NCBI GenBank assembly: GCA_964017185.1
Contig: OZ024874.1
Coordinates: 36,990,721-37,054,720, forward strand
Reading direction: 5' to 3'
Source: Rugalucina vietnamica
Lineage: Eukaryota > Mollusca > Bivalvia > Lucinida > Lucinidae
DNA: 64,000 nucleotides
Position numbers and translations under genes: made by a program. The first letter of the stretch is position 1; the number at the start of each line of letters is the position of its first letter. The notes beneath the pieces were generated by a model. That model was not told the DNA's origin. It did not search any database and worked only from the letters and a program-made list of their open reading frames with translations. Positions 7,422 to 55,604 of this stretch are shown here, one piece after another.

Positions 7422-7424
7422 ACG

Positions 7425-13390: not shown

Positions 13391-15039
13391 CTAGAATTGT
13401 CAGAGAATCTGACTATAGCCCCGCTTCTCAGCTTTTTTGCAGGGTGAAAAAAACAATCATGACAGGTAACTATCACAAGCTAGATCTCGTCAATATTGAT
13501 GCATACAAAATTTGGTCTGATTATGTCAATTCGTTCTCAAGATATTGAGCAGAAACGAAATTCTGACCTCAATAAATGGCCATAACTCCGTCAAAATTTT
13601 GTGAAAAATGACGGGTAACAATCCTAAGCTAGATCTTCTCAATGATGACGTGCATACAAAATTTGGTTCGATTCTGTCAATTCGTTCTCAAGATATTTAG
13701 CGGAAACGAAATTCTGACGTCAATCAAGGGCTGTAACTCCGTCAAAATTTTGCGAAAAATAAAGGGTAACAAATCCAAGCTAGATCTTGTCAATGATGAC
13801 GTGCATAAAAAATTTGGTCGGATTCTGTCATTTCGTTCTCAAGATATTGAGCGGAAACGAAATTCTGACGTCAATTAAGGGCCGTTACTCCGTCAAAATT
13901 TTGCGAAAAATGACGGGTAACAATCCCAAGCTAGATCTTGTCAATGTTGATGTGCACACAAAATTTGGTCAGATTCTGTCAATTGGTTCTCAAGATATTG
14001 AGCGGAAACGAAATTCTGACGTCAATCAAGGGCCGTAACTCCGTCAAAATTTTGAAAAAAATGACGGGTAACAATCCCAAGCTAGATCTTGTCAATGATG
14101 ACGTGCATACAAAATTTGGTCGGATTCTGTCAATTCGTTCTCAAGATATTGAGCGGAAACGAAATTCTGACGTCAATAAAGGGCTGTAACTCCGTCAAAA
14201 TTTTGCGAAAAATGACGGGTAACAATCCCAAGCTAGATCTTGTCAATGATGACAAGCATACAAAATTTGGTCGGATTCTGTCAATTCGTTCTCAAGATAT
14301 TGAGCGGAAACGAAATTCTGACGTCAATCAAGGGCCGTAACTCCGTCAAAATTTTGCGAAAAATGAAGGGTAACTATCCAAAGCTAGATCTTGTTAATGA
14401 TGACGTGCATACAAAATTTGGTCGGATTCTGTCAATTCGTTCTCAAGATATTGAGCGGAAACGAAATTCTGACGTCAATTAAGGGCCGTAACTCCGTCAA
14501 AATTTTGCGAAAAATAATGGGTAACAATCCCAAGCTAGATCTTGTCAATGTTGATGTGCACACAAAATTTGGTCGGATTCTGTCAATTCGTTCTCAAGAT
14601 ATTGAGCGGAAACGAAATTCTGACGTCAATCAAGGGCCGTAACTCCGTCAAAATTTTGCGAAAAATGACGGGTAACAATCCCAAGCTAGATCTTGTCAAT
14701 GATGATGTGCATACAAAATTTGGTCGGATTCTGTCGATTCGTTCTCAAGATATTGAGCGGAAACGAAATTCTGATGTCAATATAGGGCCATCCAAGGGCA
14801 ACAAGGGCAATAACTCTTCTGCAAATTTGGGGAAACTGACATGCATTTACACATAAGAAGATATTGTCAATACTGATGCATATGCCAAATTTGGTTAAAG
14901 TCTAACAACTGGTTCTCAAGTTATGTGAGGTAATGGAATGAGGGAATGACGGAAAAACGGAATAACAGAATAACGGAACTACGGAAGGACAGGGTGAATC
15001 CAGTATAGCCCCCACTTTTTCAAAGCGGGGCTATAATAA
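13391..15039 (+). mobile_element. F4 Helentron-like element
   Basis: Starts AA|CTAGAATTGTCAGAG, with subterminal CTATAGCCCCGCT. It holds about nine cores of 151 bp, then an ACGGAA-type microsatellite (about 14940-14990), and ends with a hairpin and AGCGGGGCTATAATAA. The head and tail sequences CTATAGCCCCGCT and AGCGGGGCTATA are inverted copies. This is the pearl/Helentron-associated layout with sequence unrelated to F1-F3. No protein is encoded. Confidence 0.75.
13440..14800 (+). repeat. 151-bp tandem repeat array (F4 cores)
   Basis: About nine units repeat at exactly 151-bp spacing in the centre (13787, 13938, 14089, 14240, 14391, 14542). Each unit contains GCTAGATCTTGTCAATG, AAATTTGGTCGGATTCTGTC and GTTCTCAAGATATTGAGCGG. 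Reading frames of about 83 codons in each unit are by-products of the repeat. Confidence 0.9.
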
Positions 15040-15241
15040 GGGTAGCCAATATAATTGGCAATTACCTTGTCAAGTTCATGAAATACATCAGGTGTCCTGT
15101 TGACAACTTGACCTGAGGAGTTGGTAAATCAATTGAATTGGTCTAGAGATAATTCCCCGATAATTTATTCCTAGTGTACAAGTTTACAAAAGGAGGTGTG
15201 AAGAGATCATTGTCAAAGGGGAGAAAATTGCCTTATATCAA
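15040..15241. other. Spacer between F4 and F5 elements
   Basis: About 200 bp without gene, repeat or site that I recognise. Confidence 0.6.
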
Positions 15242-16003
15242 CAAGAACTCCGCGGAGGTCGATATCGCACCTGCATCGGGCAAAGTCAATAGACAGTGAA
15301 ATATAGTTCAAGGGAACCGGGTCAAGGTGCATACTTGAAGGGCGTATCAAGGACAATTACTATGCAATGTTTCAGACTTGCAGCTATCTCTGATGTCGAG
15401 AAAACCAAACTTCGACGTAAAAATTTTCAAAGTCAGTGGACCGTGAAATATAGGTCAAGGGCACCGGGTTAAGGTGCCTGCTTGAAGGGTATGTCAAGGA
15501 CAATTACTATGCAAGGTTTCAGACTTGCAGCTATCTCTGATGTCGAGAAAACCAAACTTCGACGTAAAAATTTTCAAAGTCAGTGGACCGTGAAATATAG
15601 GTCAAGGGCACCGGGTTAAGGTGCGTGCTTGAAGGGTATGTCAAGGACAATTACTATGCAAGGTTTCAGACTTGCAGCTACCTCTGATGTCGAGAAAACC
15701 AAACTTCTACGTAAATGTTGACAAAACTTCGACGTAAAAATTTTCAAAGTCAGTGGACCGTGAAATATAGGTCAAGGGCACCAGGTTAAGGTGCGTGCTT
15801 GATGGGTATGTCAGGGACAATTACTATGCAAGGTTTCAGACTCGCAGCTATCACTGATGTCGAGAAAACTAAACTTCGACGTAAATGTTGACGGACGGAC
15901 GAACGAACGAACGGACGAACGTACGTACGGACGGACGGAAATTTGAACTCCTATATCGCACCCTGCTATAAGCAGGGCACCCTGCTATAAGCAGGTGCGA
16001 TAA
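15242..16003 (+). mobile_element. F5 Helentron-like element, copy 1
   Basis: Begins CAAGAACTCCGCGGAGG, then subterminal ATATCGCACCTGC. Several cores of about 147-170 bp follow (AAATTTTCAAAGTCAGTGG at 15421, about 15568 and about 15738), then GACGGACGGACGAACG microsatellite, and a terminal hairpin CACCCTGCTATAAGCAGG with GTGCGATAA. The hairpin is present twice in tandem here (about 15958-16000). The head and tail inverted pair is ATCGCACCTGC / GCAGGTGCGAT. Confidence 0.8.
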
Positions 16004-16136
16004 AAATATTACACCATGTAATACTTTCCATGATAATAATATACACCATGTATTGAAAAGCAGCAATTTTGTCAATGTTCGCTCACCTGAGTAAATGCTT
16101 GTTAGCTCACCTGAGCTGAAGAGGCAAACATGAGCT

Positions 16137-16860
16137 TATAGTCGCTCAGCTGAAACTGATTTTGGAAAATAAAATTACCTTATCGTTTGGAAGGATGAAT
16201 TTGGTCTCAAATTAAAGATAATTGATTGTACTTTCAAAATCCGGTTGTCGTAGTGTCAATAAAATGTAGCGTCATATCAGAAAAAGGGGTGATAACTCTG
16301 TATTTAGTAAAATTAAAAATTGCCCGTTCGGATGGAAAAATGTAAAAATATTTTTATTCGATTTCGGTTTTGAGCCTTTGATTATATTTTCGTTTTGTAC
16401 ATTGATATGTCGACACATTGTGGTTGTTTTGATTTTTTTTTGTGCCTTTCAACATAGTTACGCTTTAACGGCCAGTAACGTACGTAACACGGTAGAAATT
16501 TTGATTTTGACGTCTTGCGTTTTTTATACAGAGTAAAGTATTTTAGATATACCAATAATTTTGTATCTATGTAATGTATCTATGCAGTGTGTAGACGTTT
16601 CCATTTTTCGCTATTGTATCTCTCCATGTTGTCAGTACGCTTTTAAAAACCCAACCCATTCTTGAAAAGTAACGATTTTTCGACCGTAAATCGTCATTCG
16701 ATAGATAATAACTTATAGATTCACGTGTATATTTTTCGAATTACCACGAGAAAATTGATAAACTTGAAAGAATTGTTTTATTTTCCAGTTTAAAGGGGAA
16801 TAAATGATAAAATGGGCTTCTTGGTGTACATGTATATGGTCACGTAGACTACGTGCTTGC
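16137..16860 (+). repeat. Left inverted arm of the large element
   Basis: Pairs with 22260-22593 and 25029-25418 read in reverse. Shared blocks, outermost first: CGCTCAGCTGAAA, AAATAAAATTACC, GAATTTGGTCTCAAATTAAAG, CGACGTC/GACGTC region, CCCATTCTTGAAAA and TATATGGTCACGTAGACTAC. A second diverged copy of the ATCGTTCGGA-type block occurs at about 16945, mirrored near 22165. Confidence 0.8.
16475..16488. repeat. 14-bp palindromic motif family (first of nine)
   Basis: GTAACGTACGTAAC. Variants of the palindrome GTWACNNNNGTWAC occur at 17211, 17627, 18020, 20204, 20355, 21163, 21889 and 25063, all within the large inverted-repeat element. Copies at 16475/25063 and 17211/21889 lie at mirrored distances from the element ends. 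It may be a protein-binding site; no function is shown by the sequence. Confidence 0.7.
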
Positions 16861-19393
16861 AGACAAATATAAACACAATTAGTAAATACAGAATAAATTC
16901 AGCATTCCCTATAAAGGCGTTATGCTAATCCGGGGTTCATTACCTTATCGTTCGGATGGGGAAGTTTAGTCTAAAATGAAAGATGGGTGTCGCCTGGAAT
17001 ATTTGATTGTTTTGCGCCCCAAAACATTGTAGCGTAATTTGACAAATATGGGCACACATCTCTTTCTCAAGCGTATTCATTTTTGGTGCATGGTTACAAA
17101 ACCAATTTGAAACCGATTCGTAAATTGGCTTTTCTTCCCAATTCTTCCTGACTCAATAACTATATACTCATATAGAAATATGTATAGAGCTTCAAGGTGC
17201 ATTCTGAGATGTTACATATGTTACTTTATAAAAAGGACATGGGTCGGCCGATAAAAACAGTTTTAAGTTTTTACAATTTGCGTTTTTTTTATTTGTTCTA
17301 GTATTCATGTTATTCATATCAAAATACAGTTGTATCGGTTACATCATACAGTGTATCGGTTACAAAATAGATTTAATGGAAACACTTCAAACAAAATACT
17401 ACGAATCTATCTTTGACATATATTTCATAATATGTCGTTGAACACTTCGACCCCTATTGAAAAGCTGGAAGATTTAAAGTCGCCCTTCAACCATTTTGCA
17501 CAAATAAGAGCTATTTTCAATATCTTCCCTCTTGGTAAAACTGGGACAATTCTCTTACAACGTTTAAATAATTTCAAGAAAGAGGTTTCCTAGAGAAATA
17601 ACGTATTTCAGTAAGAGCTACGCCATGTAACATACGTAACATTTCTTAATTGCATCAATGCATGTATTGAACATACAGTACCCAATAGGATGCGTCTACT
17701 TAGCAAGAATCTTAAACTGTTACTAAATATATCATATCGATTTATCAGGAAATTGTATTGTTTTAACTAAAACCACGTGTAACACTGAATTTGATTTAAG
17801 CAGAATGAGTAAACGGGATCAACCTTGCTTACATCATACACACATGCGAATAATCAAAGAACATGTTGCTTGCAAAGATATCGTTTTGAGATATATTATA
17901 TAACGTTTAAGGAATAATGACTTAATGGTAGTGTGTATTTAATTTGATAAAACCGAATAATTGCATCGATTTCTCGGCATTCTGTACTTACTAAATTGAA
18001 AAACTGACTAAATTGAAATGTTACGCGCGTAACACCATAAAGTAAAATGACAAATACAAAGCATAACATGACATGAAATAAACAGCAAAAGAAAGAAAGA
18101 GGGAAAGAATGAAAGAAAGAATTTGAGAAAGAAGGAAAAACACGTTATTGAATTTTATTTAAAGGTAAATTGTGCGCATATACAATAAACATGTACTCTG
18201 GGTGATATCAAGATCTACTTTGCATCCCAGGATAATTGCTCATGGGTGCAAATTTGTTATTCTGAATACAAAATAGATATCAAAGTTAAGTTTCTTATAT
18301 CAAGTTAAGAATGACTAATGCTGCCATTTTATAGACACCACCAATTAACAATTTATTTGCTTTTTAAATGTTGTAAACATATAATATTTATATGAAGTCA
18401 TTGAGTTAAATGTATTTATCTTTGGATAGCCATACCCCTTCCCAAACTGACACTCTTCCACTGGTATCACTGAAGTATTGCGCACAATATTCAAATATTA
18501 TCCCCGAAACCTCAATCGTTTTAGCAGAATGATTTTGTCTTAAGTATAAAACAATTGAAAGCTCAATCTTTATAATATTTTCCTTTATGTTCAAAAAGTA
18601 ACATGTACAACACATTTATTAGAATTTCATAATTGTCTCACTACGTTTTTTTTTTTTCCTTAAAACACTGTGATCCCTTATGTATTTGACCAAAGCCGCC
18701 ACTTCATATACCAAGATAGTTCATTTTATATCAAAAGAAAGAATTAAATGATACAATGATACTTTAAGTAATAAAATTATCCAAATTTGCGATCTCGTAT
18801 CATGGTATATAATATTAGCCTTGATAATAATTATCAAGGGAATGAGTTTCCTTCTTAACATACTAAAAACTTTCAGGAAAAATGAAAGGTAGCTTTTCGG
18901 TCTCCGTTTGCCTACTTTTACCTTTCTGTGTATCATGACAGTATCACAATTGGAACGAATTCCTGTTTGTATTTTTTTTTCACAAAGATGCTTTGTTACA
19001 AGCTATTATACCAACAGGTGTTTTGCTATTAAAGGTTTTGTTTTTACATGCAATGTATGTTGTGTTGCTAAATTATGAAATTCTGCTTCATCAAAAGCAA
19101 CTTTGTCATATTCATTTAAAGGGAAATGCAATAAGTTTCATTTTATTTGTAAGCGTTAAGGAGAGGTTCAGTAATGTGAATTGTGTGAAAAATGACTTAC
19201 AACACATACAGCTTTTCCTTATTCTTTAAATCGGTTGCTAATTCTTCTATCCCGGCACTCCAATGCATTTCTATAACGTTGTAGCTTACTTAAAATTACA
19301 TAACAACATAACAAACACAGATAAAATACCTGCTCAATTTCATTTAAGTCAATAAAATATGAATCCTTATTCAATAGCACCATTTAATAAAAA
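16861..19393. other. Interior of the large element, left part
   Basis: AT-rich with no gene recognised. It contains three copies of the 14-bp palindrome, a purine-rich GAAAGAAAG tract near 18085-18130 and a poly-T near 18645. Short open frames (for example 18721-18936 and 18993-19229) show no family features. Confidence 0.6.
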
Positions 19394-20432
19394 CAAGAAC
19401 TCCGCGGAGGTCGATATCGCACCTGCATCGGGCAAAATACACATTACTATGCAAGGTTTCACACTCACAGCTATCACTGATGCAGAGAAAACCAAACTTC
19501 GACTTAAAAATTAACAAAGTCAATGGACCGTGAAATATAGGTCAAAGTCAGTGGGTCAAGGTGCGTGCTTGAAGGGTATGTCAAGGACAATTACTATGCA
19601 AGGCTTCACACTCACAGCTATCACTGATACAGAGAAAACGGAACTTCGACGTAAAAATTAACAAAGTCAATGGACCTTGAAATATAGGTCAAGGTTAGCG
19701 GGTCAAGGTGCGTGCTTGAAGGGTATGTCAAGGACAATTACTATGCAAGGTTTCACAATCCTAGCTATCACTGATGCAGAGAAAACGGAACTTCGACGTA
19801 AAAATTAACAAAGTCAATGGACCGTAAAATATAGGTCAAGGTCAGCGGGTCAAGGTGCGTGCTTGAAGGGTATGTCAAGGACAATTACTATGCAAGGTTT
19901 CACAATCCTAGCTATCAGTGATGCAGAGAAAACCAAACTTCGACGTAAAAATTAACAAAGTCAATGGACCGTGAAATATAGGTCAAGGTGCGTGCTTGAA
20001 GGGTATGTCAAGGACAATTACTATGCAAGGTTTCACAATCCTAGCTATCACTTATGTAGAGAAAACCAAACTTCGACGTAAATGTTGACGGACGGACGGA
20101 CGAATGAACGAACGAACGGACGGACGGACGGATGGAAATTTGGACTCCTATATCGCACCCTGCTATAAGCAGGTGCGATAATAAGCTTCTGTATTAGTAT
20201 TGTGTAACATACGTACCATAATTTAGTAATTTGTTTGTACAATTTAACATATAAGTTTGCTTAATCATGTCGAGAACTTCATTAAAGTCAATAAAATACG
20301 AATCCTTATTCAATAGCACCATTTAATAAAAATAAGCTTCTGTATTAGTATTGTGTAACATACGTACCATAATTTAGTAATTTGTTTGTACAATTTAACA
20401 TATAAGTTTGCTTAATCATGTCGAGAACTTAA
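19339..20432 (+). repeat. 154-bp tandem duplication, one copy interrupted
   Basis: The unit 20279-20432 is an uninterrupted copy of the sequence made by joining 19339-19393 to 20182-20278. Both end in CTTAATCATGTCGAGAACTT. The first copy contains the F5 insertion and the second acts as the unoccupied site. Confidence 0.85.
19394..20181 (+). mobile_element. F5 Helentron-like element, copy 2
   Basis: Same head (CAAGAACTCCGCGGAGG), subterminal ATATCGCACCTGC, about four cores, GACGGACGGACGGACG microsatellite and terminal hairpin as copy 1, here with a single hairpin. Comparison with the empty copy at 20279-20432 places the insertion in AATAAAAA^TAAGC with no clear target duplication (two bases of ambiguity). 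Confidence 0.88.
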
Positions 20433-22259
20433 GGAGCGTATATAATGTAAAAGAAGCCATTCTTACAAAGAGACGACAATTTCATCCCAATACTTTATAG
20501 TAAGTGTTACGCGTTAGTGATGTCGCTGATATGATTTCAATACTGCTTGTTTCACATATAACTGTTCGTTACCTTCACTATATCTACAGTAAATTGACTA
20601 AAATCAAAGTTATTAAGAGGTTAACGTCAGTGGATTGGAAACAATCGTGCCCAAAGTGGTTTCTCTTATTTTGTAATCAAGTTTAAGGTTCTGTTGATAT
20701 GCTATAAAACATGTATGTGTAAACAATTAACAGTGCAAGGTTATCTACGATACGCATAGGAATATTATTATACTAAGTAAATATCTATTAAGTAAACATC
20801 TCTTATTAAGTAAACATCTCTTTGAATGTACGTTTTGAAATGATTTCATGTTTTCGCTATCATGGTAACAGCGTGGGCTTAGATTCAGATTAGTAATATA
20901 TCAAACAATGACCATATCCGTATCTCTAGATGCTGATTAGGCCCTGCCATGCCAGTTGGAAATAATTGCGTACAGTAAACCATTGCTATCATTCTTGATA
21001 AAAACGGAACAATAACTGCACACAGTAAACCTGAGATTGAAACAATGAATCTTATATTTGGAAAGGGCACATGGATACACTTTATTCTAAATATTTTAAA
21101 TAACTCCAATGACTTCACACAGTGAAGAAAGTAAATAAAATGTAACATATCATGTTTTGTGTGTAACGTATGTAACACAAATTAAAATGCTGCTTCAGGA
21201 CATATCGGTTTCACTGAACTCCAAAATAGAACCAAATTACAAAGAAAAAAAACCCCTATAGAACTAAGAATAAAATGTAGGCTTTATAGTCATACTCTTA
21301 TCTGGGTCTAAACTTCTATGTTAGGCTATACAAGTCGTCAAACCACTATGCTACAAAATAGTGTAGAGGAAAATACAAACGACGACGGCAACAGCATTGC
21401 ATTTAAATCGAATAAGTATATTTTGGTAAACGGAAACTGCATTAAATGATTGAACGGACCTTAAACTTACTTTGATCCTGAAATTAAACTGTATGCAATG
21501 CTTAACTGTTTTATTAATGCGAATGTAGTTTACGTAACCATTTGAAAAAGACTACTTTGTACTTTACACTTCAGCTTTTTTCTCTCCTCCGTCGCGGTCG
21601 CGGACCGTGTTCCGAACTTTCTGATCTGGTAAAGGCCAACATTTTTATTTAATAACTTTCTAGAGTGGCGAAGTATCCATTTCTACACAGAAAGCGGTAT
21701 AATTCAAGAATGTGGTAGGTGAATTAACAATGGTAAACGATATAGAAAAGATCATTGGTAAAGTAAATTATTCATTGCAAAGGCTTATAAACAGCATTTT
21801 CATGTACATTTTATTTTAGTACGCTATGAAATATTTTATCTTATAGAGAAATTGCATCGCATGGCTCCAATTCAGTGTATAATAATGTGTTACATATGTT
21901 ACGCTTCGTTATGGCAGTAGCGTACGTTCTTAAAATGTTTGAACCAATTACAATGTGCAGACAAATGATTGTATGATGAAACAAATTTAACACAGTGATC
22001 AAAATTGAAAAGAATAAATGATATATCAACCTTCCAATATTCCAACGTGTCATTTAGGATTTAACCCAATAAAGAGGTATCTATCTGCCCTGTCCTGGTT
22101 TAGTGCTACACATTTTTTCAAAGAACAATCACTTTTCTTTAATTTATGACGAAATGTCTCCTTCTGGACGATGGGGTATAGTTTCGTTTCAAAATCATGT
22201 TCATGTATGGGCCTATCTATGGGGGCCCGAATGTTTAGTGTTTTGTCTTCTGTATGCAC
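20433..22259. other. Interior of the large element, right part
   Basis: AT-rich, no gene recognised. It holds palindromes at 21163 and 21889 and a degenerate half site near 21527. The reading frames at 20885-21178 (minus) and 22050-22259 (minus) have no recognisable domain; the second overlaps mirrored arm sequence. Confidence 0.6.
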
Positions 22260-25200
22260 ACATGTAGTCTACGTGACCATATACATTTTGAAGCCTATTT
22301 CATTATTCAATTCTCCAAAAATGTTAAAAAGATTTTGATTTGAGCCAGTATATCCATTCCTCGCAGTAAATTAAAAGACATACATGTTTATCCATAAGTT
22401 TTTCTCTACCGAATGAGAAATTGAACTTCGTAAAACGGCATTTTTCAAGAATGGGTGGGTCACTTTAAAACGCACTAACAAGGTTTAGAGATGTCCCAGC
22501 GGAAATATGAGAACATTTACGTGCTTCCCACTGACTGAGCCTTATATAGATAGAAAATCATTGGTATACCTAAAATACTGTAGTTTGTATAAACCAGAGG
22601 ACCAATGGTCCTGTAAACGATCACCTGAGATCTGCTGCATATACCAATAAACATGTTTGAATATTATGGTATTCAACTCCAGTGCAGGGGCAGATGAAGC
22701 ACTTGGGCCATTTTCTTTTTTTCAGAATCTTCAATATTCTGTCCATTTGGCAATTTCCTGCTGGCTTTTCCCTTCAAATGACATTTTAACAGTTTTCCCA
22801 ATTCAAATGCATAGGCAAAAAATGTTGACCTTGCCATAAACTTGGTCAAGGTCATCACAGGGTCATGATTTATATATACATTGTAGTACTTTAGCCATCG
22901 ATGCTTCACGCCAAGTTTCCTTGAAATCAGTTGATTGGTTTCAGAGAAGAAGATTTTTAATGGGTTTTTACCATATATGAGCATGGCGGCCATCTTTGTC
23001 ATGTGACCTAGATTATTTATATACACATTGATTCCCCCATTCTATAGATGTTTCACATAAAATTTGGCTTTGATTGGCCAAGCGGTTTCAGAGGAGAAGA
23101 CATTTGAATATTATGGAAATATACATGTATATTACCCCGGGTGGGGGCACACGAGCTCCTGTGGTCCAATTTTTTTCAGAATCATTAATATTCAGTCCTA
23201 TTTCCCATTTCCTGCAAGACTTTCACTTTAAATTACATTTTAAAAGTTTTCCCCATTCAAATGCCTTGGCGACCTATGTTGACCTTGCCGTAAAATAGGT
23301 CAAGGTCATCACAGGGTCATGATTTATACATACATTGAAGTGCATGAGCCATCGATGCTTCATGCCAGGTTTCCTTGAAATGAGTCAACCAGTTCTGGAG
23401 AAGAAGATTTTTGAAGGGTTTTTACCATATATGGGCATGGTGGCCATATTGGTCATGTGACCTGGATTTTTTATATACATATTGGTTCCCCCTTCCTATT
23501 GATGCTTCACATAAAATTTGGCTTTGATTGGCCAAGTGGTTTCAGAGGAGAAGACGTTTGAATATTATGGAGATATACATGTATATTGCCCCGGGGTGGG
23601 GGAACATGAGCCCCTGGGGTCCAATTTTTTTCAGAATCATTAATATTCAGTCCTAATGCCCATTTCCTGCAAGACTTTCACTTTACATGACATTTTAAAA
23701 GTTTTCCCCATTCAAATGCCTTGGCGACCTATGTTGACCTTGCCGTAAAATAGGTCAAGGTCATCACAGGGTCAAGATTTATACATCCATTGCAGTGCTT
23801 GAGCCATCGATGCTTTATGCCAGGTTTCGTTGAAATCGGTCAACCAGTTCTGGAGAAGAAGATTTTTGAAGGGTTTTTACCATATATGGGCATGGTGGCC
23901 ATCTTGGTCATGTGACCTGGATTTTTTATATACATATTGGTTCCCCCTTCCTATTGATGCTTCACATAAAATTTGGCTTTGATTGGCCAAGTGGTTTCAG
24001 AGGAGAAGACGTTTGAATATTATGGAGATATACATGTATATTGCCCCGGGGTGGGGGAACATGAGCCCCTGGGGTCCATTTTTTTTTTTCAGAATCATTA
24101 ATATTCAGTCCTAATGCCCATTTCCTGCAAGACTTTCACTTTACATGACATTTTAAAAGTTTTCCCCATTCAAATGCATTGGCAACCTATGTTGACCTTG
24201 CCGTAAAATAGGTCAAGGTCATCACAGGGTCAAGATTTATACATACATTGTAGTGCTTGAGCCATCGATGCTTTATGCCAGGTTTCGTTGAAATCGGTCA
24301 ACCAGTTCTGGAGAAGAAGATTTTTGAAGGGTTTTTACCATATATGGGCATGGTGGCCATCTTGGTCATGTGACCTGGATTTTTTATATACATGTTGGTT
24401 CCCCCTTCCTATTGATGCTTCACATAAAATTTGGCTTTGATTGGCCAAGTGGTTTCAGAGGAGAAGACGTTTGAATATTATGGAGATATACATGTATATT
24501 GCCCCGGGGTGGGTGAACATGAGCCCCTGGCGTCCAATTTTTTTCAGAATCATTAATATTCAGTCCTAATGCCCATTTCCTGTAAGACTTTCACTTTAAA
24601 TGACATTTTAAAAGTTTTCCCCATTCAAATGCATTGGCAACCTATGTTGACCTTGCCGTAAAATAGGTCAAGGTCATCACAGGGTCATGATTTATATATA
24701 CATTGTAGTGCTTGAGCCATTAATGCTTCATGCCAAATTTCGTTGAAATCGGTCCACCGGTTCAGGAGAAGAAGATTTTTGAAGGGTTTTTACCATATAT
24801 GGGCATGGCAGCCATCTTGGTCATGTGACCTGAATTTCTTATATTCACATTGGTTCCCCCTTCCTAATGATGCTTCATATAAAATTTGGCTTTGATTGGC
24901 CAAGCGGTTTCAGAGGAGAAGATCTTTGAAATTGTGGATGGACGGACGACGGACGGACGACGGACGGACGCCGGATCATGGCCATCCTATAAGCTCACCT
25001 TGAGAGCCTAACGGCTCAGGTGAGCTAAAAACGCAAGACGTCAAATTCAAAATTTTTGCAAGGTTACATACGTTACCGGCCGTTAAAGAGTCATTGAAAA
25101 ATCACAAACAGTTTAAATCAACCACATTATGTCGACAAATTATTGTACAATATGAAAATATAATCAAAAGCTCGAAACCGAAATCGAATAAAAATATTTT

Positions 25201-25418
25201 TGACGTTTTCGTATCCCCATGGGCAATTCTTAATTTTAACGAATACAGAGTTATCTCCCCTTTTTCTGATATGACGCTACACTTTTTTGACACTACGACA
25301 ACCAGATTCTGAAAGAACAATCAATTATCTTTAATTTGAGACCAAATTCATCCTTCCGAACGATGAGGTAATTTTATTTGCGATTTAGGGCTTGTTTGAA
25401 TTTCAGCTGAGCGGCTAT
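22260..25418 (-). repeat. Right inverted arm, split by an F1 insertion
   Basis: Read on the minus strand it matches the left arm. The F1 element at 22594-25028 sits in a run of six A (three on each side), the counterpart of six T at the matching place in the left arm (about 16519-16525). Confidence 0.8.
22594..25028 (+). mobile_element. F1 Helentron-like element with about five cores
   Basis: Head CCAGAGGACCAATGGTCC, then ATCACCTGAGATCTGCTGC. Five cores of about 440-465 bp begin at TTGAATATTATGG (22649, 23106, 23549, 24013, 24470), each with TGACCTTGCCGTAAAATAGG and CCATCTTGGTCATGTGACC. They are followed by a GGACGGACGAC microsatellite (24940-24970) and a tail hairpin ending GGCTCAGGTGAGCTAA. 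It is the cleanest multi-core copy in the window. No protein is encoded. Confidence 0.88.
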
Positions 25419-26165
25419 TATGGAATATTACTTAAATCTAGTTGCATGATGAAACCTTAGGTTTTCAGGAAACAATATAATATGAAATAAATAGGTTTTA
25501 CCTATTGCCGTGCATCCTAAACACACAACAATGAAAACTTTAAAATAAAATAATATAAATGCTATGCAATAAATGATCTTACACGAGTACTTATTTCACA
25601 ACTCACCAAAGTATTCTTAAATAAGTTTCATATGATATGACCATGAGTGTTAGATATCGGAAATACCGAAATACCTTACCATAATAATGTAGAAAAAAAT
25701 TGCACCCTTTAAGTGTTCAACGTCAGAAACCCAGAGATGCACAAGGTGCAGGGTGCTAAAAGTGCAATAAGCAACTTATTGTATGGTTCGTCCGTGTGTA
25801 CGAGCGATAACCACTCCCTTAGAGCTTGTGTAGATAAAAAAAATGGCTTTGGTTGGCCAAGGGATTTCAGAGAAGAAGATTTTTGAAAATGTAACTGTAC
25901 GGACGCACGCCGACTCGAGTACCATCCTATAAGCTATCCATGAGCATTCGGCTCAGGTCAGCTAAAATCGTTGAATTTTGCAACAGAAAATGCAAAATAA
26001 ATACTGTCTATTGTGAAACTATACAAGGGATAATTTGACTAATTACTCCCTGGTAAGTTTCTGCCATTCCCCACTTTTGCATTTTGGATTTAGTCAAACA
26101 AAAATGAAAGTTTCATTCTTTATTAAGATAATCATGTGATAAACATTAAAGAACAATTAATTTTC
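25419..26165. other. Intergenic DNA with an F1 3' fragment
   Basis: At about 25838-25967 a diverged F1 end is present (GGCTTTGGTTGGCCAAG, GAGAAGAAGATTTTTGAAAA, a short CGGACGCACGCC run and CGGCTCAGGTCAGCTAA). The rest shows nothing recognisable. Confidence 0.6.
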
Positions 26166-26406
26166 ATATATGAGCCGCCGCATCAGAAAACCAACAATCT
26201 GCATATGCGAAACCAAAGGCACAGGTCAGATGTGCAGTAACTGTACAGCTGATCAGCGCCTTTCTTTTCAGTACAGAAATAGTAAAATCCCTCTTCCTGT
26301 TAAATCAAATTTTCAAGCTTCTTAAATCTAGGACTGTACAGACAGATATTTGTCAGGCCTGGTAAGAAACCCAGATTGTTGGTTTTCTCATGCGAAGGCT
26401 CATATA
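26166..26406. mobile_element. MITE with about 35-bp inverted ends
   Basis: Left end ATATATGAGCCGCCGCATC, then AGAAAACCAACAATCTG; the right end is its inverted copy, CAGATTGTTGGTTTTCTCATG then GGCTCATATA. The interior is also partly self-complementary. Related, more diverged copies are at 55391, 56320 and, one-sided, at 12205 and 28240. Confidence 0.85.
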
Positions 26407-26490
26407 CGACACCTGACACCCTGATAAATTATTTGATACAAACATCCAACTATCAAACACAATCACAGATCAGCTTAATCACATACAAAA

Positions 26491-28093
26491 CCAGAGGACC
26501 AATGGTCCTGTAAACGCTCACCTGAGATCTGCTTCATATACCAATAAACATATTTGAATATTATGGTATTTAACCCCAGTGCAGGGGCATGAAGCCCTTG
26601 GGCCATTTTCTTTTTTCAGAATAATCAATATTCTGTCCATTTGCCAATTTCCTGCTGATTTTCCCCTTCAAATAACATTTTAAAAGCAGATGAGCCCCTG
26701 GGGTCCATTTTTTTCAGAAGCATTAAATTTCAGTCCTACTGCCCTTTTCCTGAAAGACTTTCACTTAAAATGACATTTTAAAAGTTTTCCCCATTCAAAT
26801 GCATTGACGACCTATGTTAACCTTGCCATAAATTAGGTCAAGACTTCATGCAAAGTTTCGTTGAAATCGGTTCACCGGTTCTGGAGAAGAAGATATTTTA
26901 AGGGTTTTTACCATTTATGGGCATAGCGGCCATCTTGTTCATGTGACCTGGATTATTTATATATACATTGATTCCCACTTCCTATAGATGCTTCATATAA
27001 AATTTGGCTTTGATTGGCCAAGTGGTTTCAGAGAAAAGATCTTTGATAAGTGTGTATGGACGACAGACCGGCCAAGGTCAAGAGATGACCTTGACCTAAA
27101 TTAATCATATGCCTTCATGTAATCCATTAGTTGTTTGCATCTACCACTTTTCAGATCTCAGGCTGCAATAGTTTTCAAAAAATAGCTAATTTCCGCTTTT
27201 CCCATTATAAGTCTATGGAAACTTAAAGGTACCATAGCAACCAGAGTTCTTATCCCACTGGAATAAAAAACACAAATTATGTAGAGGCTACTGTCAGGAA
27301 CATGTATACAAAGTACAGGATTCATCCACTTGACAGTTTCTGAGGAGAAGATTTTTGAATGTTTTTTCTCAAAATTTTGCCCTTTATGGGGCCCCAACAA
27401 CCAATTAAAATAAAGGATTAGGACAAAACTCGCAAGAAACGTCAAACACTACTCAAAAAACATTCAGTCTGCAAAAACAAAATTCAAATGTCTGCAATAT
27501 TAGCGGAAAAATAGCCAATTTCCACTTTTCCCATCATAAGTCTATGGAAACTTTAAGTTGCCATAGCAACCAGAGTTCTTATCCGCCTGGAATAAAAAAC
27601 ACAAATTATGTAGAGGCCACTGTCAGAAACATGTATGCAAAGTATAGGCTTTATCCCCTTGACAGTTTCTGAGAAGAAGATTTTTGAATGTTTTTCGAAA
27701 TTTTGCCCTATATGGGGCCCCTGCAACCAATCAAAATGAAGGATTAGGACAAAAGTCACATGAAACGTAGAGGACTACTCAATAAACATTTCTGCAAAAA
27801 CAAAATTCAAATATCTCCAACAAGACAGCAAAAACTGGCAATTTTCACTTTTTTCCATTATAAGTCTATGGGAAGCATAAGTTGCCATAGCAACCAGAGT
27901 CCTTATCCGATCAAAACAAAAAACACAATTATTCTTTCCCCCTGCCTGTAGATGGTGTATGTATAATATGAGAACAATCGGCCCAGAGGTTTCAGAGAAG
28001 ATCTTTGAAATTGTGAACGAGGACAGACGGACGGACGCCGGAGCATGGGTATACTATAAGCTCACCTATGAGCCTTCGGCTCAGGTGAGCTAA
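26491..28093 (+). mobile_element. F1 Helentron-like element with mosaic cores
   Basis: F1 head at 26491 and F1 cores to about 27050. It then switches to F2-type sequence (ACGACAGACCGGCCAAGGTC, CTCAGGCTGCAATAG) and to a third core type with CCATTATAAGTCTATGG repeated at about 27200, 27530 and 27855. It ends with GGACGGACGCC and a hairpin tail finishing GGCTCAGGTGAGCTAA. The mixture suggests template switching between related elements. Confidence 0.8.
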
Positions 28094-28500
28094 CAAATCA
28101 GCCTGATTACTTTTCATTGCATAATTAAATCAAATCAAAGGCCCTGATAGTACATGTATGTGTGAGTGAGAGCTTCCCTGGTATTGACTGACCTGCGTCA
28201 TCTGAAAAACTGTATTTTTGCATAGCTGTTCAATCCCTATAACGTTTGTTAACCCAAATTTCCAAATCTAGAGCTATTTTCTGTGGTTGTATAATAGCTT
28301 TCGGATCTGGTCAAAACACCCAGGACCTGGTCAGAACAACCAAATACCAATTTTCTCATAACACAGCTCATACATTTATACTTTCTAAGAACAATGTACT
28401 GCTCATGATGCATTTACAGTGTGATAAACTAGATGGTAACGTGGCAATTCTCATTTATATTGGGTAGTCATAAAATTTAAAAAAAATAAATAAAGAGAAA
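28094..28500. other. Spacer with a MITE half
   Basis: About 28240-28375 resembles the right half of the ATATGAGCC MITE (GGACCTGGTCAGAACAACC, then TTTTCTCATAACACAGCTCAT). No gene. Confidence 0.45.
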
Positions 28501-30178
28501 CCAGAGGACCAATGGTCCTGTAAACGCTCACCTGAGATCTGCTGCATATACCAATAAACATGCTTGAATATTATGGTATTTAATCCCAGTGCAGGGGCAG
28601 ATGAAGCCCTTGGGCCATTTTCTTTTTCAGAATAATCAATATTTTGTCCATTTGCCAATTTCCTGCTGGCTTTTTCCTTCAAATGACATTTTATCAGTTA
28701 TTCCCATTCAAATGCATTGGCAATGCAGGGTCATGATTTATATATACATTGTAGTACTTGAGCCATCGATGCTTCAAGCCAAGTTTCCTTGAAATCGGTC
28801 CATTGGTTCCGGAGAAGAAGATTTTTGAGAGATTTTTACCATATATGGGCCTGGCAGCCATGTGACCTGGATTATTTATATACACATTGATTACCCCATC
28901 CTATAGATGCTTCACATAAAATTTGGCTTTGATTGGCCAAGTGGTTTCAGAGGAGCAGATGTTTGAATATTATGGAGATAGACATGTATATTGCCCCGGG
29001 GTGGGGGCATATGAGCCCCTGTGGTCCATTTTTGTCAGAATCATTAATAGTCAGTCCTAATGCCCATTTCCTGCAAGACTTTCACTTTAAATGACATTTT
29101 AAAAGTTTTCCCCATTCAAATGCACTGGCGACCTATGTTGACCTTGCCATTAAATAGGTCAAGGTCATCACAGGGTCATGATTTATATATACATTGTAGT
29201 GCTTTAGCCATCGATGTTTCATGCCAAGTTTCATTGAAATTGGTCCACCGGTTCCAGAGAAAAAGATTTTTGAAGGGTTTTTACCATATATGGGCATGGT
29301 GGCCATCTTGGTCATGTGTCCTGGATAATTTATAAACACATTGGTTATCCTTTCCTATTGATGCTTTACATAAAATTTGGCTTTGATTGGTCAAGCGGTT
29401 TCAGAGGAGCAGACGTTTGAATATAGTGAAGATATACATGTATATTGCCCCGGGATGGGGGCACATGAGCCCCTGGAGTCCATTTTTTTTTTAGAATCAT
29501 TAATATTCAGTCCTACTGCCCATTTCCTGCAAGACTTTCACTTTAAATGACATTTTTAAAGTTTTCCCCATTCAAATGCATTGGCGACCTATGTTGACCT
29601 TGCCGTAAAATAGGTCAAGGTCATCACAGGGTCATGATTTATATACACATTGTAGTGCTTTAGCCATCGATGCTTCATGCCAAGTTTCATTGAAATTGGT
29701 TTACCGGTTCCAGAGAAAAAGATTTTTGAAGGGTTTTTACCATATATGGGCATGGCTTTCACTTTAAATGACATTTTAAAAGTTTTCCCCATTCAAATGC
29801 ATCGGTGACCTATGTTGACCTTGCTGTAAAATAGGTCAAGGTCATCACAGGGTCATAATTTATATACACATTGTAGTGCTTGAGCCAATGATGCTTCATG
29901 CCATGTTTCGTTGAAATCGGTCCACTGGTTCGGGAGAAGATTTTTGAAGGGTTTTTACCATATATGGGCATGGCGGCCATCTTGGTCATGTGACCTGGAT
30001 TTCTTATATACACATTGGTTCCCCCTCCCTATAGATGCTTCATATAAAATTTGGCTTTGATTGGCCAAGCGGTTTCAGAGGAGAAGATCTTTGAAATTGT
30101 GGATGGACGACGGACGGACAGCGGATCATGGCCATCCTATAAGCTCACCTTGTGAGCCTAACGGCACAGGTGAGCTAA
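28501..30178 (+). mobile_element. F1 Helentron-like element
   Basis: Head at 28501, about four cores (one internally shortened near 29760), a GGACGACGGACGGACAGC microsatellite near 30104 and a hairpin tail ending GTGAGCTAA at 30178. No protein is encoded. Confidence 0.85.
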
Positions 30179-30189
30179 AAAAAAAAGAC

Positions 30190-30901
30190 ATCAAACTATG
30201 ACCAAAGCAAACTTTGAAATCCGTCCACCAGTTCTGGAGAAGATTTTTGAAGAGTTTTTATCGTATATGGGCATGGCGGCCATCTTGGTAATGTGACCTA
30301 GATTATTTATATGCACATTGATTCCCCCATTCTATAGATGCTTCACATAAAATTTGGCTTTGATTGGTCAAGCAGTTTCACAGGAGATGTGCGAATATTA
30401 TGGTAATATACATATACAATACCCCGGGGTGGGGGCAGATGAGGCCCTTGGGCCCAATTTTGTTTTCAGAATCATTAATATTCAGTCCTACTGCCCATTT
30501 CCTGCAAGACTTTCACTTTAAATGACTTTTTAAAAGTTTTCTCCATTCAAATGCATTGGGGACCTATGTTGACCTTGCCGTAAAATAGGTCAAGGCCATC
30601 AATGCTTCATGCCAAGTTTCTTTGAAATCGGTCCACCGGTTCTGGAGAAGATTTTTGAAGGGTTTTTACTATATATGGGCATAGTGGCCATCTTGGTCAT
30701 GTGACCTGGATTTCTTATATACACATTGGTTCCCCCTTCCTATAGATGCTTCATGTAAAATTTGGCTTTGATTGGCCAAGTGGTTTCAGAGGAGAAGATC
30801 TTTGAAATTGTGGACGGACGACGACGACAAGTGACGGACGGACGCCAGAGAATGGCTATCCTATAAGCTCACCATATGAGCCTTCGGCTCAGGTGAGCTA
30901 A
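30190..30901 (+). mobile_element. F1 element, 5'-truncated
   Basis: Starts inside a core (AAATCCGTCCACCAGTTCTGG), has about one and a half further cores, then GACGGACGGACGCC and a hairpin tail ending CGGCTCAGGTGAGCTAA at 30901. It lacks a head. Confidence 0.8.
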
Positions 30902-31367
30902 AAAAAGGCAAATAGAACACACTTTGTGGGTATTCATTAAAATCATGAATTTAAACAATTTATTCATCAACCCTCAATACAATCAAAAGTGTGACTACGT
31001 TTCAGAAATAGGCAACATTTTGTAACCCTTATTAAAGTCTCTTGTCACCCTCATTAAAGTCTAAAGGTAAACAAAGTCATCAAAATAAAATCAACCAACA
31101 ATTATGATAACAAACATCGATTTTTTGGTCAAAATTGATAATTTTGTTTATATCCAATCGAATTTGTGTGCCTTGATTTTTCATCAAAAATATCATAAAC
31201 TTAAGAATCGCCTATATCAACAACTGTGGGCTTCAGCAAATATTTAATATCTCAAATAAACAGTACAGTTGGCGAAATAAGGCCGTCTCTCGCCAAGCAC
31301 TGCCCTACCAGACTCTATATCAGACTGCTCAGGCGGAGTGCAGCAATTGTGTTCAGCTAGTTCCAGC
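30902..31367. other. Intergenic, possibly 3' flank of the recombinase exon
   Basis: AT-rich, no repeat recognised. It follows the stop of the minus-strand recombinase exon and might hold its 3' untranslated region. Confidence 0.4.
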
Positions 31368-31738
31368 TTAGGTTTCATAGGGCACTAGATTTTCCTTTGG
31401 AGGATCTAATACAGCAGCTACTCGCTTCTGAATTTCACTTGAAGCAACCTTATACTTCTGTACACTTTTCTCAGATCTATGTCCAGTCCTTTGCATTATT
31501 TCTTGCTCATCCACCCCTGCCATGTAGAGCTGTGTCACACACGTTCTTTTACCGCTATGATTGGTATAATTCCCAGAAAGTTCAGCATGTGCCCATATTA
31601 CTTTTATCATGTTTTTATGTTTATTTACTCCAATGACTTGATTGCCATAGCGTATAGGGAGTCCAGCTAGTGGTCTTCGGTAGAAAGCGCCTCTATTTAA
31701 CGCCACCAAATATTTCTTAAAAGATCTGCAATTGGTTT
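31368..31738 (-). CDS. Crypton-type tyrosine recombinase, C-terminal exon
   Basis: C-terminal catalytic half of a tyrosine recombinase of the Crypton/DUF3504 group, whose members cut and rejoin DNA through a tyrosine. Visible residues: N-H-S-G-K-R-T (second catalytic Arg region), R-T-G-H-R-S (His-x-x-Arg-like box) and V-Q-K-Y-K, with Tyr as the likely nucleophile. The reading continues upstream to E-T-N-C-R-S-F-K-K-Y-L. A polypyrimidine tract ends at CAG (31746-31744), but using it leaves an in-frame TGA; the next AG (31740-31739) avoids it. The first catalytic Arg domain is not found nearby. It could be a transposon remnant or a domesticated gene. Confidence 0.7.
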
Positions 31739-31764
31739 CTCATCTGAAAAAAAAAAAAACCATC

Positions 31765-31935
31765 AAGAAGACATGTCCGTGAAATAAATACCCCCTTGAA
31801 CCCCTATTTTATACAGTAAAACAGGAGTTTACAGGGATGTGTCTATCCAAAGCATAGATTGTGGGTACTCATTAAAACCGCCTCAGCGAGGCGGTTCTCA
31901 CGTGTGCCTACAATTAATGTTTTGAGCACATAAAA
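31765..31935. mobile_element. Palindromic MITE, copy 1
   Basis: Contains CATAGATTGTGGGTAC, a centre AACCGCCTCAGCGAGGCGG and a mirrored arm (CCTACAATTAATGTTTTGA). Related copies lie at 34485 and 34890. It forms a near-complete hairpin with no coding capacity. Confidence 0.7.
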
Positions 31936-32104
31936 TAAACATATCATAATTTTTCTAATGAGATTTCAATTTTTACAGAGCTGCAATGATCTCAATTTCA
32001 ATTTTTCGTATAAATGCTAGGAATCGGACTATTTGGTACAATTTAATTCAGACATCAGTTCCACTTGTTTACACTAATTATTTCTATAATATTTACTGTT
32101 CAAA

Positions 32105-32265
32105 CATGGGCGGATCCAGAGGGGGGGACAGGGGGTCCCCCCCCCCCTCCCCTGGAATTGCCAGATTATTTGTTTTTGCCATGTTGAAATTTTCCGTCAG
32201 ATGGGGACTCAGACCCCTTCTGGGAATTTGCACCCCCCCTGGGAAAATTTTCTGGATCCGCGCAT
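32105..32265. mobile_element. Short MITE with GCGGATCCAGA ends
   Basis: Ends GGGCGGATCCAGAGGGGG and TCTGGATCCGCGCATG are inverted copies. The interior is G-rich on one side and C-rich on the other. A half copy is at 37873. The apparent 128-codon frame across it is spurious. Confidence 0.65.
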
Positions 32266-32600
32266 GCCAAACACGATCTTTCAGAATCTTTTTTTTCAAA
32301 ATAGTTACTTCCCTTGCTGACATTTTCTCAAATTTATTTTCTCCACGGGAAATTCTTGGATTTTTTTTTTAATTTCAATACAGGTTTTCATTCTATTTAT
32401 GTGACAACTTTTTGAACGTGACAGAATGACACAAAAGGGTGAATTTATAAACACAGTTTCTGAAATACGAGCCATGTTGGCATGACATTCAATGACAAAA
32501 TATAACAAAAAGATACATACCATTTAGGCTGTAATGTCTTATCCGTTTGTTAGAGAGTTTCAAGTCCTTTTAGCCCCCTTTGTACGTTTTGGAGCTTTGT

Positions 32601-32889
32601 CTACTGAACTCGACATAAATTCCATGGGCGATAGGGTTCGAGTTCTTTCTTCCGCCCTTCCACCACAAATCTGCTCAAATAATGGTTCATCTGCTCCACT
32701 GTCATTAACTGTATTTCCGGCACGAATTCAGGTCCAGCAGCATTTCTCCAAGAGGAAAAGACCCCTGCAGCCCAGTTTGTGTTTTTCTTTGTGTTTCTGT
32801 TCTTATGGTTCTCTATGAGCTGACGGATCTCATAATCGGATACTGTCGGCACAAATCGGGATGTGGCGGTTTCAGCAACAGTGGCATCG
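32601..32889 (-). CDS. Crypton-type recombinase, N-terminal core-binding exon
   Basis: Encodes the N-terminal DNA-binding segment typical of Crypton-derived recombinases: D-Y-E-I-R-Q-L-I-E-N, then N-T-K-K-N-T-N-W-A, and M-T-V-E-Q-M-N-H-Y-L-S-R-F-V. A splice acceptor (TTTTAG at 32890-32891) precedes an open frame starting D-A-T-V-A-E-T. It lies 0.86 kb upstream of the C-terminal exon on the same strand, so both may belong to one gene, but the central catalytic part is not visible between them. The 3' boundary of the exon is uncertain; the frame reaches a stop at 32601. Confidence 0.65.
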
Positions 32890-32999
32890 CTAAAACAAAA
32901 ATATAAATATCAAAGATTTTCGTTTTATCAAAAGGTGTTAACTGAAATTTTAAATTGTTACAGCTTATAAAACCGCTGTTACATCTTGGACCGTATATC

Positions 33000-33185
33000 T
33001 ATTTTTCCTTATATTTGGCGGTTCTAGCGTGTACCCTAGATCTATGACCAATCAGTACTTTATGTGGGCAGAAACAAGAGAACCCCGAGAAAACCACCTG
33101 GCACACCCGCAAGCAGAACTTGGCTTGTCTCACACATGCTAGTGGATAATTTCCTGTCATAAAAAGTGTTATGAACACACATGAC
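33000..33185 (-). mobile_element. SINE fragment, minus strand
   Basis: Read on the minus strand it matches the body of the SINE at 44498 (GACAAGCCAAGTTCTGCTTG, then CAGGTGGTTTTC). The tRNA-derived head is missing and the 3' part diverges. Confidence 0.75.
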
Positions 33186-33239
33186 ATGTATTATCACTTT
33201 TATGGGAATATGAGATGTAATTGATGACGTATGTAATAA

Positions 33240-34217
33240 GAGCTGTCGCAGGACAGCGTAGCTCGCCTGACTTGTGCTTTGTCACTAAATCTATTAATTC
33301 TACGACCAAATACATTGACCTCATTGTCACTCAGGTGGGTTGTGATGGTACAGCATAAAACTTCAGACCAATATCTACCAACATGCTAAGTTCAACTTGA
33401 TCCATCTACATATTCAAGAGATATAGACTTATAAAAACTTTAACCAAACACTCTAACACAAACTTTCTAAGTCCGTAACCTTGAACTCAAGGTCACCCAG
33501 GTGGGTCATGATGGTACAGCATAAAACTTCAGACCAATATCTACCAACATGCAAAGTATCAACTTGATCCCTCTACATATTCAAGAGATATAGACTTATA
33601 AAAACTTTAACCAAAAACTCTAACACAAAATTTTTAAGTCCGTAACCTTGACCTCAAGGTCACCCAGGTGGGTCATGATGGTACAGAATAAAACGTCAGA
33701 CCAATATGTACCAACATGCAAAGTATCAACCTGATCCATCAACAACTTCAAGAGATATAGACTTATAAAAATTTTAACCAAAAACTTTAACCAAAAATTT
33801 CAAAGTCTGTGACCTTGAACTCAAGGTCACCCAGGTGGGTCACGATGGTACAGCATAAAACTTCATACCAATATCTACCAACATGCAAAGTATCAACTTG
33901 ATCCCTCTACATATTCAAGAGATATAGACTTATAAAAACTTTAACCAAAAACTCTAACACAAAATTTCTAAGTCCGTGACCTTGACCTCAAGGTCACCCA
34001 GGTGGGTCATGATGGTACAGCACAAAACTTCAGACCAATATCTACCAACATGCAAAGTATCAACTTGATCCATCTACAACTTCAAGAGATATAGACTCAT
34101 AAAAACTTTAACCAAAAACTTTAACATTTTGAGCAACGCCGACGCCGACGCTAACGCCAACGCCGACGCCGGGGTGACTGCAATAGCTCTTCCTGTACTT
34201 TCGTACAGGCGAGCTAA
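33240..34217 (+). mobile_element. F6 Helentron-like element
   Basis: Head AGCTGTCGCAGGACAGCG, then TAGCTCGCCTGA. About five cores of roughly 165-180 bp (CACCCAGGTGGGTCATGATGG, CAAGAGATATAGACTTATAA) are followed by a (GACGCC)n microsatellite at about 34137-34172 and a terminal hairpin CCTGTACTTTCGTACAGG with CGAGCTAA. The head and tail pair TAGCTCGCCTG / CAGGCGAGCTA is inverted. The layout is the same as F1-F5, with unrelated sequence. Confidence 0.8.
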
Positions 34218-34324
34218 AAACAATGTAAATTTTCCTTGAAAATATGAATATTACACTCATGGTTATTTCCATATATATCCGTATGAAACTTATTGTTGCT
34301 TTGTATAGAGGCGTACAATTTTTC

Positions 34325-50057: not shown

Positions 50058-50485
50058 GTCAAGGTCATCCAAAGGTCATAATTTATAAACACATTGTAGT
50101 ACTCTAGTCCCCGATGCTTCATGCCAAGTTTCGTTGAAATCGGTCCAGTGTTCGTTGAAATCGGCATGGTGGCCATCTTGGTCATGTGACCTGGATTATT
50201 AAGAAACAAGTTGGTTCCCCCTTCCTATAGATGCTTCATATAAAATTTGGCTTTGATTGGCCAAGTGGTTTCAGAGAAGAAGATCTTTGAATATTTTTGT
50301 AATATACATGTATATTGCGCCAGGGTGGGGGCAGACCAACCCCTAGGGTCCAAATGTTTTTCAGAATTACCTACCTTCAGTCCATTTGCCCATTTCCTGC
50401 AAGATTTGCCTTTCAAATGACATTTTAACAAATTTCTCCATTCAAATGCATGGGCGACCTATGTTGACCTTGTAAATACATTGTA

Positions 50486-55595: not shown

Positions 55596-55604
55596 TGTTT
55601 TATA

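Follow-up and report, generated by a model that had tools for sequence, protein, structure and literature searches.

What kind of element builds several repeats of unlike sequence on one plan, whether one machinery moves them all, and where their tandem cores come from are the questions raised by a stretch of 64,000 nucleotides from the bivalve Rugalucina vietnamica (the window; contig OZ024874.1, positions C6:36990721-37054720 of an assembly of 1.09 Gb in 47 contigs). The window contains seven repeats of four families: F1, F2 and F3 (F1 family), F4, F5a and F5b (F5), and F6. An earlier reading, made from the sequence alone, had seen in them different sequences with a common plan and had proposed a Helentron-associated, pearl-like identity as well as a single replication machinery. 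All seven elements and their inverted motifs were re-found, within a few bases of the positions first given, and both the common plan and the Helentron identity were borne out. We conclude, with a probability of roughly 0.9, that F1-F6 are non-autonomous Helentrons (HINEs) moved by rolling-circle replication; each family appears to derive by internal deletion from an autonomous Helentron of its own. This conclusion is carried by the architecture of the elements, their recurrent boundaries, one empty site, and the ends, leader arrays and protein domains of autonomous partners, all of which were observed directly. The earlier reading had also suggested looking for autonomous Helentrons with the ends of each family; these were found for F1 (13.9 kb) and F4 (~16.85 kb), but not for F5 and F6.

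Autonomous partners of F1 and F4

A family search scored 150 Helitron_like_N places among 409 first-look candidates (referred to below as listed Rep domains), many of which sit in open frames of more than 2,000 amino acids (aa). Reading outward from two of them, on C7 and C4, revealed copies of an F1 partner that are 95-100% identical in the aligned pieces. Both start with TTTTTAGCTCACCTGAGCCGAAGGCTCACAGGTGAGCTTATAG, continue with GTCCGTC repeats and a 454-bp tandem array, and end with CTCAGGTGAGCGTTTATAGGACCAATGGTCCTCTGGT, beyond which the loci diverge. The C7 copy (C7:11862309-11876243; 13,935 bp) has a frame of 2621 aa with a Herpes_teg_N-like domain, DUF6570, Helitron_like_N, a PIF1 helicase and a C-terminal Exo_endo_phos domain, the latter barely above the Pfam cut-off (24.9 versus 24.5). 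The 5' end, microsatellite type and core of F1 match this partner, and 33 of 36 nucleotides (nt) at the 3' end are identical by eye; F2 and F3 differ at two positions.

The association of these ends with Rep domains was also found genome-wide. An exact pattern of the autonomous-type F1 3' end, designed from three places (C7, C4 and C15) that are among those counted, occurs at 79 places, and at 52 of these a listed Rep domain on the same strand precedes the end by 6.1-12.5 kb, within a search window of 0-15 kb. The corresponding counts were 0 for ends upstream of the domain, 0 for the opposite strand, and 0, 0, 0, 1 and 0 after five shifts of position.

With regard to F4, seven of its 3' ends genome-wide have an upstream flank other than that of the offshoots; a stricter count of such autonomous-type ends gave three exact places and two with two mismatches. 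Two of the seven follow related Rep places on C5 and C7, at distances of 4.9 and 5.4 kb downstream. The final 158 bp of this pair agree at 88%, the homology ends at one point, and 38 bases are identical to F4 in both. The C7 partner (~C7:53327424 to 53344273, ~16.85 kb, 799 bases of which are unread), when read leftward, shows the F4 5' end (TATAGCCCCGCTTTGGAAAAGTGGGGCTATACTGGATTCACCCTGTCC), TTCCGTGA repeats and then a 151-bp array of 26 complete monomers. Its frame of at least 3257 aa, listed with 3536 aa in the family search, comprises DUF6570, Helitron_like_N, PIF1 and Exo_endo_phos. The domains of both partners, namely Rep, PIF1 helicase and AP-type endonuclease, form the Helentron arrangement. 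Both proteins (L071:1460-4999 and L077) contain internally repeated lysine-rich stretches before DUF6570; in the F4 partner a repeat of ~26-27 residues, judged by eye, extends over roughly 700 aa.

F4 is 86% identical to the beginning of its partner over 1578 bp, after which 38 of 38 nt agree at the 3' end; it appears to be close to the first 1.6 kb or so of the parent followed by the parent's last 38 bases. The identity of the 151-bp monomers is 0.935 within the F4 HINE, 0.860 between HINE and parent, and 0.839 within the parent, and the topology of a midpoint-rooted tree places the offshoot monomers with the parental monomer A12, inside the parental diversity. This pattern fits a derivation of the F4 offshoot from a piece of the parental array.

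Several observations weigh against the reading of F1-F6 as offshoots of their own Helentrons. As many as 27 of the 79 autonomous-type F1 3' ends have no listed Rep domain in their vicinity, and 98 of the 150 domains lack a link to such an end. Since the F1 core is ~80% identical to the array of the C7 parent and the F1 3' end falls below the BLAST cut-offs used, the C7 copy is not the immediate source of F1. Four of the seven F4-type ends are near no listed Rep domain; among these four, the C13 end carries the same tag upstream. Another of the seven (C6) is located 13.4 kb downstream of an F1-type Rep place. The monomer tree compares one HINE with one parent copy, and the HINE monomers form no strict group, A12 being among them. 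The mobilisation of the F1 and F4 offshoots by their partners is read from shared ends and a shared array, as was done for mite and fly elements (Thomas 2014). Finally, end-pattern tests found no autonomous partner for F5 or F6 near the 150 listed Rep domains.

The last result is weak evidence of absence, because the tests would recognise only partners whose 3' ends are nearly identical and whose upstream flank differs, and because, of about ten Rep groups at 30 loci, the ends were read for the F1- and F4-type lineages only. The one F5 candidate was discarded, its flank resembling the offshoot minus seven bases; allowing one mismatch gave five matches, none near a listed Rep domain. For F6, a first version of the pattern gave five matches. 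A relaxed version gave 85 exact places but mostly counted offshoots, as it was badly placed and excluded a single offshoot base; only the place on C15 had a listed Rep domain no more than 20 kb upstream of it. This candidate, whose end lies 11.8 kb downstream of the domain, was rejected too: the 0.7 kb read there is ordinary F6 core, and the C15 Rep place has an F1-type 3' end at the predicted position.

Ends, boundaries and insertion sites

HINEs are described as having a 5' subterminal inverted repeat (subTIR) with a complementary inverted repeat (IR) and, at the other end, a 3' subTIR followed by a palindrome (PMC4067079, PMC7492417); in oyster HINEs, a microsatellite follows the 5' subTIR and IR (PMC7492417). 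The canonical orientation of F1-F6 is the minus strand, in whose sense the Rep open reading frames (ORFs) of both autonomous partners also run. Because the published plan fits every element on that strand, the two ends had been swapped in the sequence-only reading. What it took for a 5' start after A or AA is the 3' end, where a palindrome had been overlooked in all four families, and its terminal hairpin ending in TAA, placed at the far end, is the 5' subTIR with its IR, followed by the microsatellite.

On the minus strand, the 5' ends consist of TTTTTAGCTCACCTGAGCC..GGTGAGCT with GTCC repeats in F1-F3, TATAGCCCCGCTT.. with TTCCGT repeats in F4, TATCGCACCTGC.. with CGTC repeats in F5 and TAGCTCGCCTG.. 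with GGCGTC repeats in F6. An IR complementary to the 5' subTIR is present, interrupted in F6, and the 3' subTIR is followed by a palindrome, which is AGGACCATTGGTCCT in F1-F3, GTCAGATTCTCTGAC in F4, CTCCGCGGAG in F5 and GCTGTCCTGCGACAGC in F6. The longest exact inverted subterminal match is 9 bp in F1, 11 in F2, 9 in F3, 13 in F4, 12 in F5a and F5b, and 11 in F6. The inverted motif of 11-13 bp previously ascribed to all elements is therefore exact in F2, F4, F5 and F6, which reach the subTIR length of at least 11 bp known from HINEs, but not in the F1 and F3 copies, where 9 exact bp are interrupted by mismatches. In all seven elements the motif exceeds the expectation from shuffling: among 1000 shuffles of the two 60-nt ends, the observed length was reached by 7 for F1, 12 for F3, 1 for F6 and none for F2, F4, F5a and F5b. 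The palindrome taken alone is not rare in the two F5 copies and F6 (117, 109 and 57 per 1000 shuffles) and rarer in F1-F4 (16, 3, 7 and 17).

A common 3' terminus, TCTNRTT, was noticed post hoc in the same data in all four families (CTCTGGTT, TTCTAGTT, TTCTTGTT and CTCTTATT), and CNCCTG is present in the subTIRs of three of the four. Tandem Repeats Finder (TRF) detected tandem cores in six of the seven elements (monomer lengths in Table 1) and microsatellites in five, namely F1, F5a, F5b, F6 and, weakly, F4. Both features had been claimed for every element; the claim holds except for F2, in which neither was found, and F3, which has no microsatellite by TRF.

A generic structural scan of the window gave 48 candidates versus 1-7 in six shuffled sequences, but also 48 in the reversed sequence, and it missed F6. 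The scan does not discriminate because palindromic tandem arrays dominate it, and the case therefore rests on genome-wide copies. The F5 3' end was found at 2,779 places (1394 + 1385) with at most two mismatches, and the F6 3' end at 3,512 (1736 + 1776) with at most one mismatch to a pattern with free positions; the patterns read backward gave 0 in both cases. Aligned ends, compared by eye with the window copies counted, showed the identical two end points between differing flanks at all 8 F5 loci and at 29 of the 30 F6 loci; the remaining F6 locus (L070) is cut short at one end. The boundaries proposed earlier are thus shared by copies genome-wide; the common left edge of F6 (AATAAG) starts at ~33236, four bases to the left of its first placement. 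In the viral database IMG/VR, the F5 end motif matched two contigs over 19 bases each, with no further F5 homology, and the F1 motif had no match.

The insertion target was analysed on the F5 and F6 loci. A run of at least five Ts stands before the 5' end at all 8 F5 loci and at 26 of 29 F6 loci, and after the flanking Ts were stripped no flank duplication of 3 bp or more was found (0/8 and 0/29). The surroundings of F5b are tandemly duplicated over a short stretch; one copy contains the element and the other is empty, with ..CACCATTTAATAAAAA and TAAGCTTCTG.. meeting at 20332/20333. The occupied copy has the same flanks around the element and no duplication, so that F5b entered next to a T-run of the canonical strand and duplicated no target sequence; shared A/T in element and target leaves the insertion point ambiguous by 1-2 bases. 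The copies and the empty site agree with the TT or T-run insertion without target site duplication (TSD) described for HINEs.

Source of the tandem cores and of the machinery

The F1 and F4 parents, present in the same genome, share their ends and microsatellite type with the offshoots, and a related array separates their microsatellite from the ORF. These leader arrays suggest a source of dispersed 'satellite' DNA. We propose, tentatively and with slightly less than even confidence, that the array is an old native 5' leader of the autonomous bivalve Helentron and that offshoots recur by a replication or repair skip from the array to the terminal ~40 bases with the 3' stop signal. If this is true, dispersed 'satellite DNA' in genomes of this kind would in good part be amplified Helentron leader and not captured host satellite, and each HINE core would indicate its parental Rep lineage.

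The tandem cores could instead be host satellite DNA captured by Helentrons, as the filler-DNA model holds. Capture is one of the two scenarios published for oyster HINEs (PMC7492417), and the F5 and F6 cores have no link to an autonomous leader. However, the F1 and F4 arrays occupy the same place in the autonomous element, after the microsatellite and before the ORF, and the F4 array is more diverse in the parent than in the single offshoot compared, and we consider capture rather unlikely. An autonomous ancestor may have captured the array long ago.

The idea that a single autonomous lineage mobilises all four families through interchangeable terminal signals could draw on the subTIR, palindrome and TCTNRTT terminus present in all four, on the recurrence of CNCCTG, and on the thousands of F5 and F6 copies for which no partner was found. 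By BLAST, F1 matches the 5' region of the F1 partner only and F4 the 5' region and 3' end of the F4 partner only, with no cross-match; the 3' end of F1 was matched to its partner by eye. F5a and F6 match neither partner element, and a 64-bp F5-like fragment was found in the flank beyond the end of the F1 partner. The two partner proteins are 30.6% identical over 2164 aa, and F1 and F4 appear to belong to two different autonomous lineages. Given that the two Rep proteins are so dissimilar (31% identity), the earlier suggestion of one machinery for all families is unsupported, and we consider a single mobilising lineage improbable. That the repeats are MITE-like elements, transposons with terminal inverted repeats (TIRs) or simple satellite arrays unrelated to rolling-circle elements is extremely improbable, since despite the inverted subterminal motif and the tandem arrays their ends are asymmetric, no target duplication was found at the loci analysed or the empty site, and Rep/helicase partners with the same ends contradict this already for F1 and F4.

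A canonical Helitron (5' TC, 3' CTRR, A^T target, no endonuclease) was also considered and rejected, the elements having a 5' T-run with TAGC, TATA or TATC, a T-run target and an endonuclease in the partners. Two of the four family 3' ends (CTGG and CTAG) fit CTRR once the last TT is ignored.

For HINEs moved by their own Helentrons, with Rep, helicase and endonuclease available, the most plausible roles of the two ends are those of a 5' nicking site and a 3' stop signal in rolling-circle transposition. Rep, an HUH-type nuclease (PMC9741609, and general background), would nick the 5' end at the T-run, subTIR and complementary IR. One strand would then be displaced through microsatellite and tandem core, and replication would stop at the 3' subTIR, palindrome and TCTNRTT terminus. 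The freed strand could enter a T-run without target duplication. F5 and F6 would have had partners of the same kind.

HINEs are known from mites, flies and oysters (PMC4067079, PMC7492417), and these two papers already describe the shared plan, its occurrence in several unrelated families of a single bivalve genome, the microsatellite and the T-rich target. By its published description, Cg_HINE of Crassostrea gigas (Vojvoda Zeljko 2020, PMC7492417) resembles F1-F6 in its 11-12 bp 5' subTIR with complementary IR, GTCY-type microsatellites, central repeats of 138-181 bp, 3' subTIR followed by a palindrome, T-rich insertion site without TSD, and unrelated families side by side. In contrast to Cg_HINE, two families here have an autonomous partner with the tandem core in its leader, and the F1 monomers reach 455 bp; the oyster HINEs could not be related to ten autonomous candidates (PMC7492417), and no autonomous element was detected in the oyster assembly of PMC7992393. 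The HINE/DINE-1 elements and Helentrons of Thomas 2014 (PMC4067079) likewise have subTIRs, an IR near the 5' subTIR, a 3' stem-loop, a microsatellite, a TT target, and a Rep/helicase/endonuclease parent with common ends. The distance from the 3' subTIR to the end is ~38-60 bp in mite HINEs versus ~23-26 bp here (by eye), and tandem repeats, described there in HINE copies, are found here in the autonomous leader as well. Bivalve pearl elements (CvA, CvE, CvG) and MgE, by description alone, also carry ~160-bp repeats in short arrays flanked by conserved ends. Helentrons with deubiquitinase domains of herpes-tegument type have been described before: in VTD-containing Helentrons, as in the F1 partner, a Herpes_teg_N-like domain stands at the N-terminus of the frame that also encodes Rep, helicase and endonuclease (PMC9741609); we found no description of their ends or non-autonomous relatives in the available portion of that paper.

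In the available, mainly open-access full-text literature on bivalve Helentrons, we found no report of a central array in the leader of an autonomous element. Since the plan is in print and no leader array was found reported, the families themselves are of known type, and the novelty lies in the parent-offshoot links of F1 and F4 and in tracing two 'satellite' cores to a leader. With partners that have open Rep frames in the same assembly, the question of whether a HINE core is captured satellite or the element's own sequence becomes a direct comparison, and partner specificity becomes testable.

Features of the window

The elements are listed in Table 1 together with two further F1-family end pairs, which lie outside the span covered by the earlier reading. 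A tblastn search with both partner proteins found no Rep coding sequence in the window, and Rfam at gathering scores gave no match.

Table 1. Elements and related features of the window, with 5' and 3' sides given in canonical (minus-strand) orientation
Feature	Position	Strand	5' side and microsatellite	Tandem core	3' side or remark
F1 HINE	22592..25031	-	TTTTTAGCTCACCTGAG with IR, at the 25031 side; GTCC, 24940-24975	455 bp, 22716-24938	3' subTIR then palindrome, 22598-22612; 3' end CTCTGGTT
F2 HINE (F1 family)	26488..28097	-		no TRF array	interior holds a stretch of another repeat
F3 HINE (F1 family)	28498..30180	-		456 bp, 28726-29755	
F4 HINE	13385..15039	-	subTIR TATAGCCCCGCTT with IR; TTCCGT type	151 bp, 13459-14789	3' subTIR and palindrome GTCAGATTCTCTGAC; 3' end TTCTAGTT
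F5a HINE	15241..16006	-	subTIR TATCGCACCTGC with duplicated IR; GACG, 15890-15939	147/170 bp	palindrome CTCCGCGGAG; 3' end TTCTTGTT
F5b HINE (second F5)	19393..20182	-	GACG, 20087-20136	147 bp, 19443-20082	
F5b empty site	20280..20460	.			F5b flanks, second copy without element; junction 20332/20333 (AATAAAAA / TAAGCTTC); no TSD
F6 HINE	33236..34219	-	subTIR TAGCTCGCCTG with interrupted IR; GGCGTC, 34136-34171	167 bp, 33315-34126	palindrome GCTGTCCTGCGACAGC; 3' end CTCTTATT
F1-family end pair	48858..52401	-			structural candidate from ends alone
F1-family end pair	57908..59561	-		encloses 448-bp tandem array	structural candidate

F5b and F1 are nested in a block of ~9.3 kb (16140-25413) bounded by inverted repeats of ~360 bp that are 85% identical (16167-16524 and 25027-25379), with TTA on both sides by eye. 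The block holds all nine GTAACATACGTAAC-like palindromes of the window (at most two mismatches) and is possibly a large TIR element of PIF/Harbinger-like type; no ORF longer than 122 aa is listed within it.

On the minus strand, 31368-31739 and 32601-32909 hold a tyrosine-recombinase-like fragment (Phage_integrase, 26.8 bits, just under the cut-off of 27.1) and a weak QRICH1 match, which we take to be Crypton-like. RVT_1 reverse transcriptase frames at 506-1315 (minus) and 7419-8216 (plus) mark two remnants of non-LTR-type retrotransposons, the second with a sub-threshold PHD-finger match behind the reverse transcriptase. Two arrays of a palindromic TCCATGGA-type unit, ~2 kb apart, are located at 43001-43160 and 45186-45535, and 16 copies of a 33-bp tandem repeat at 55601-56130 give a repetitive open frame on both strands.

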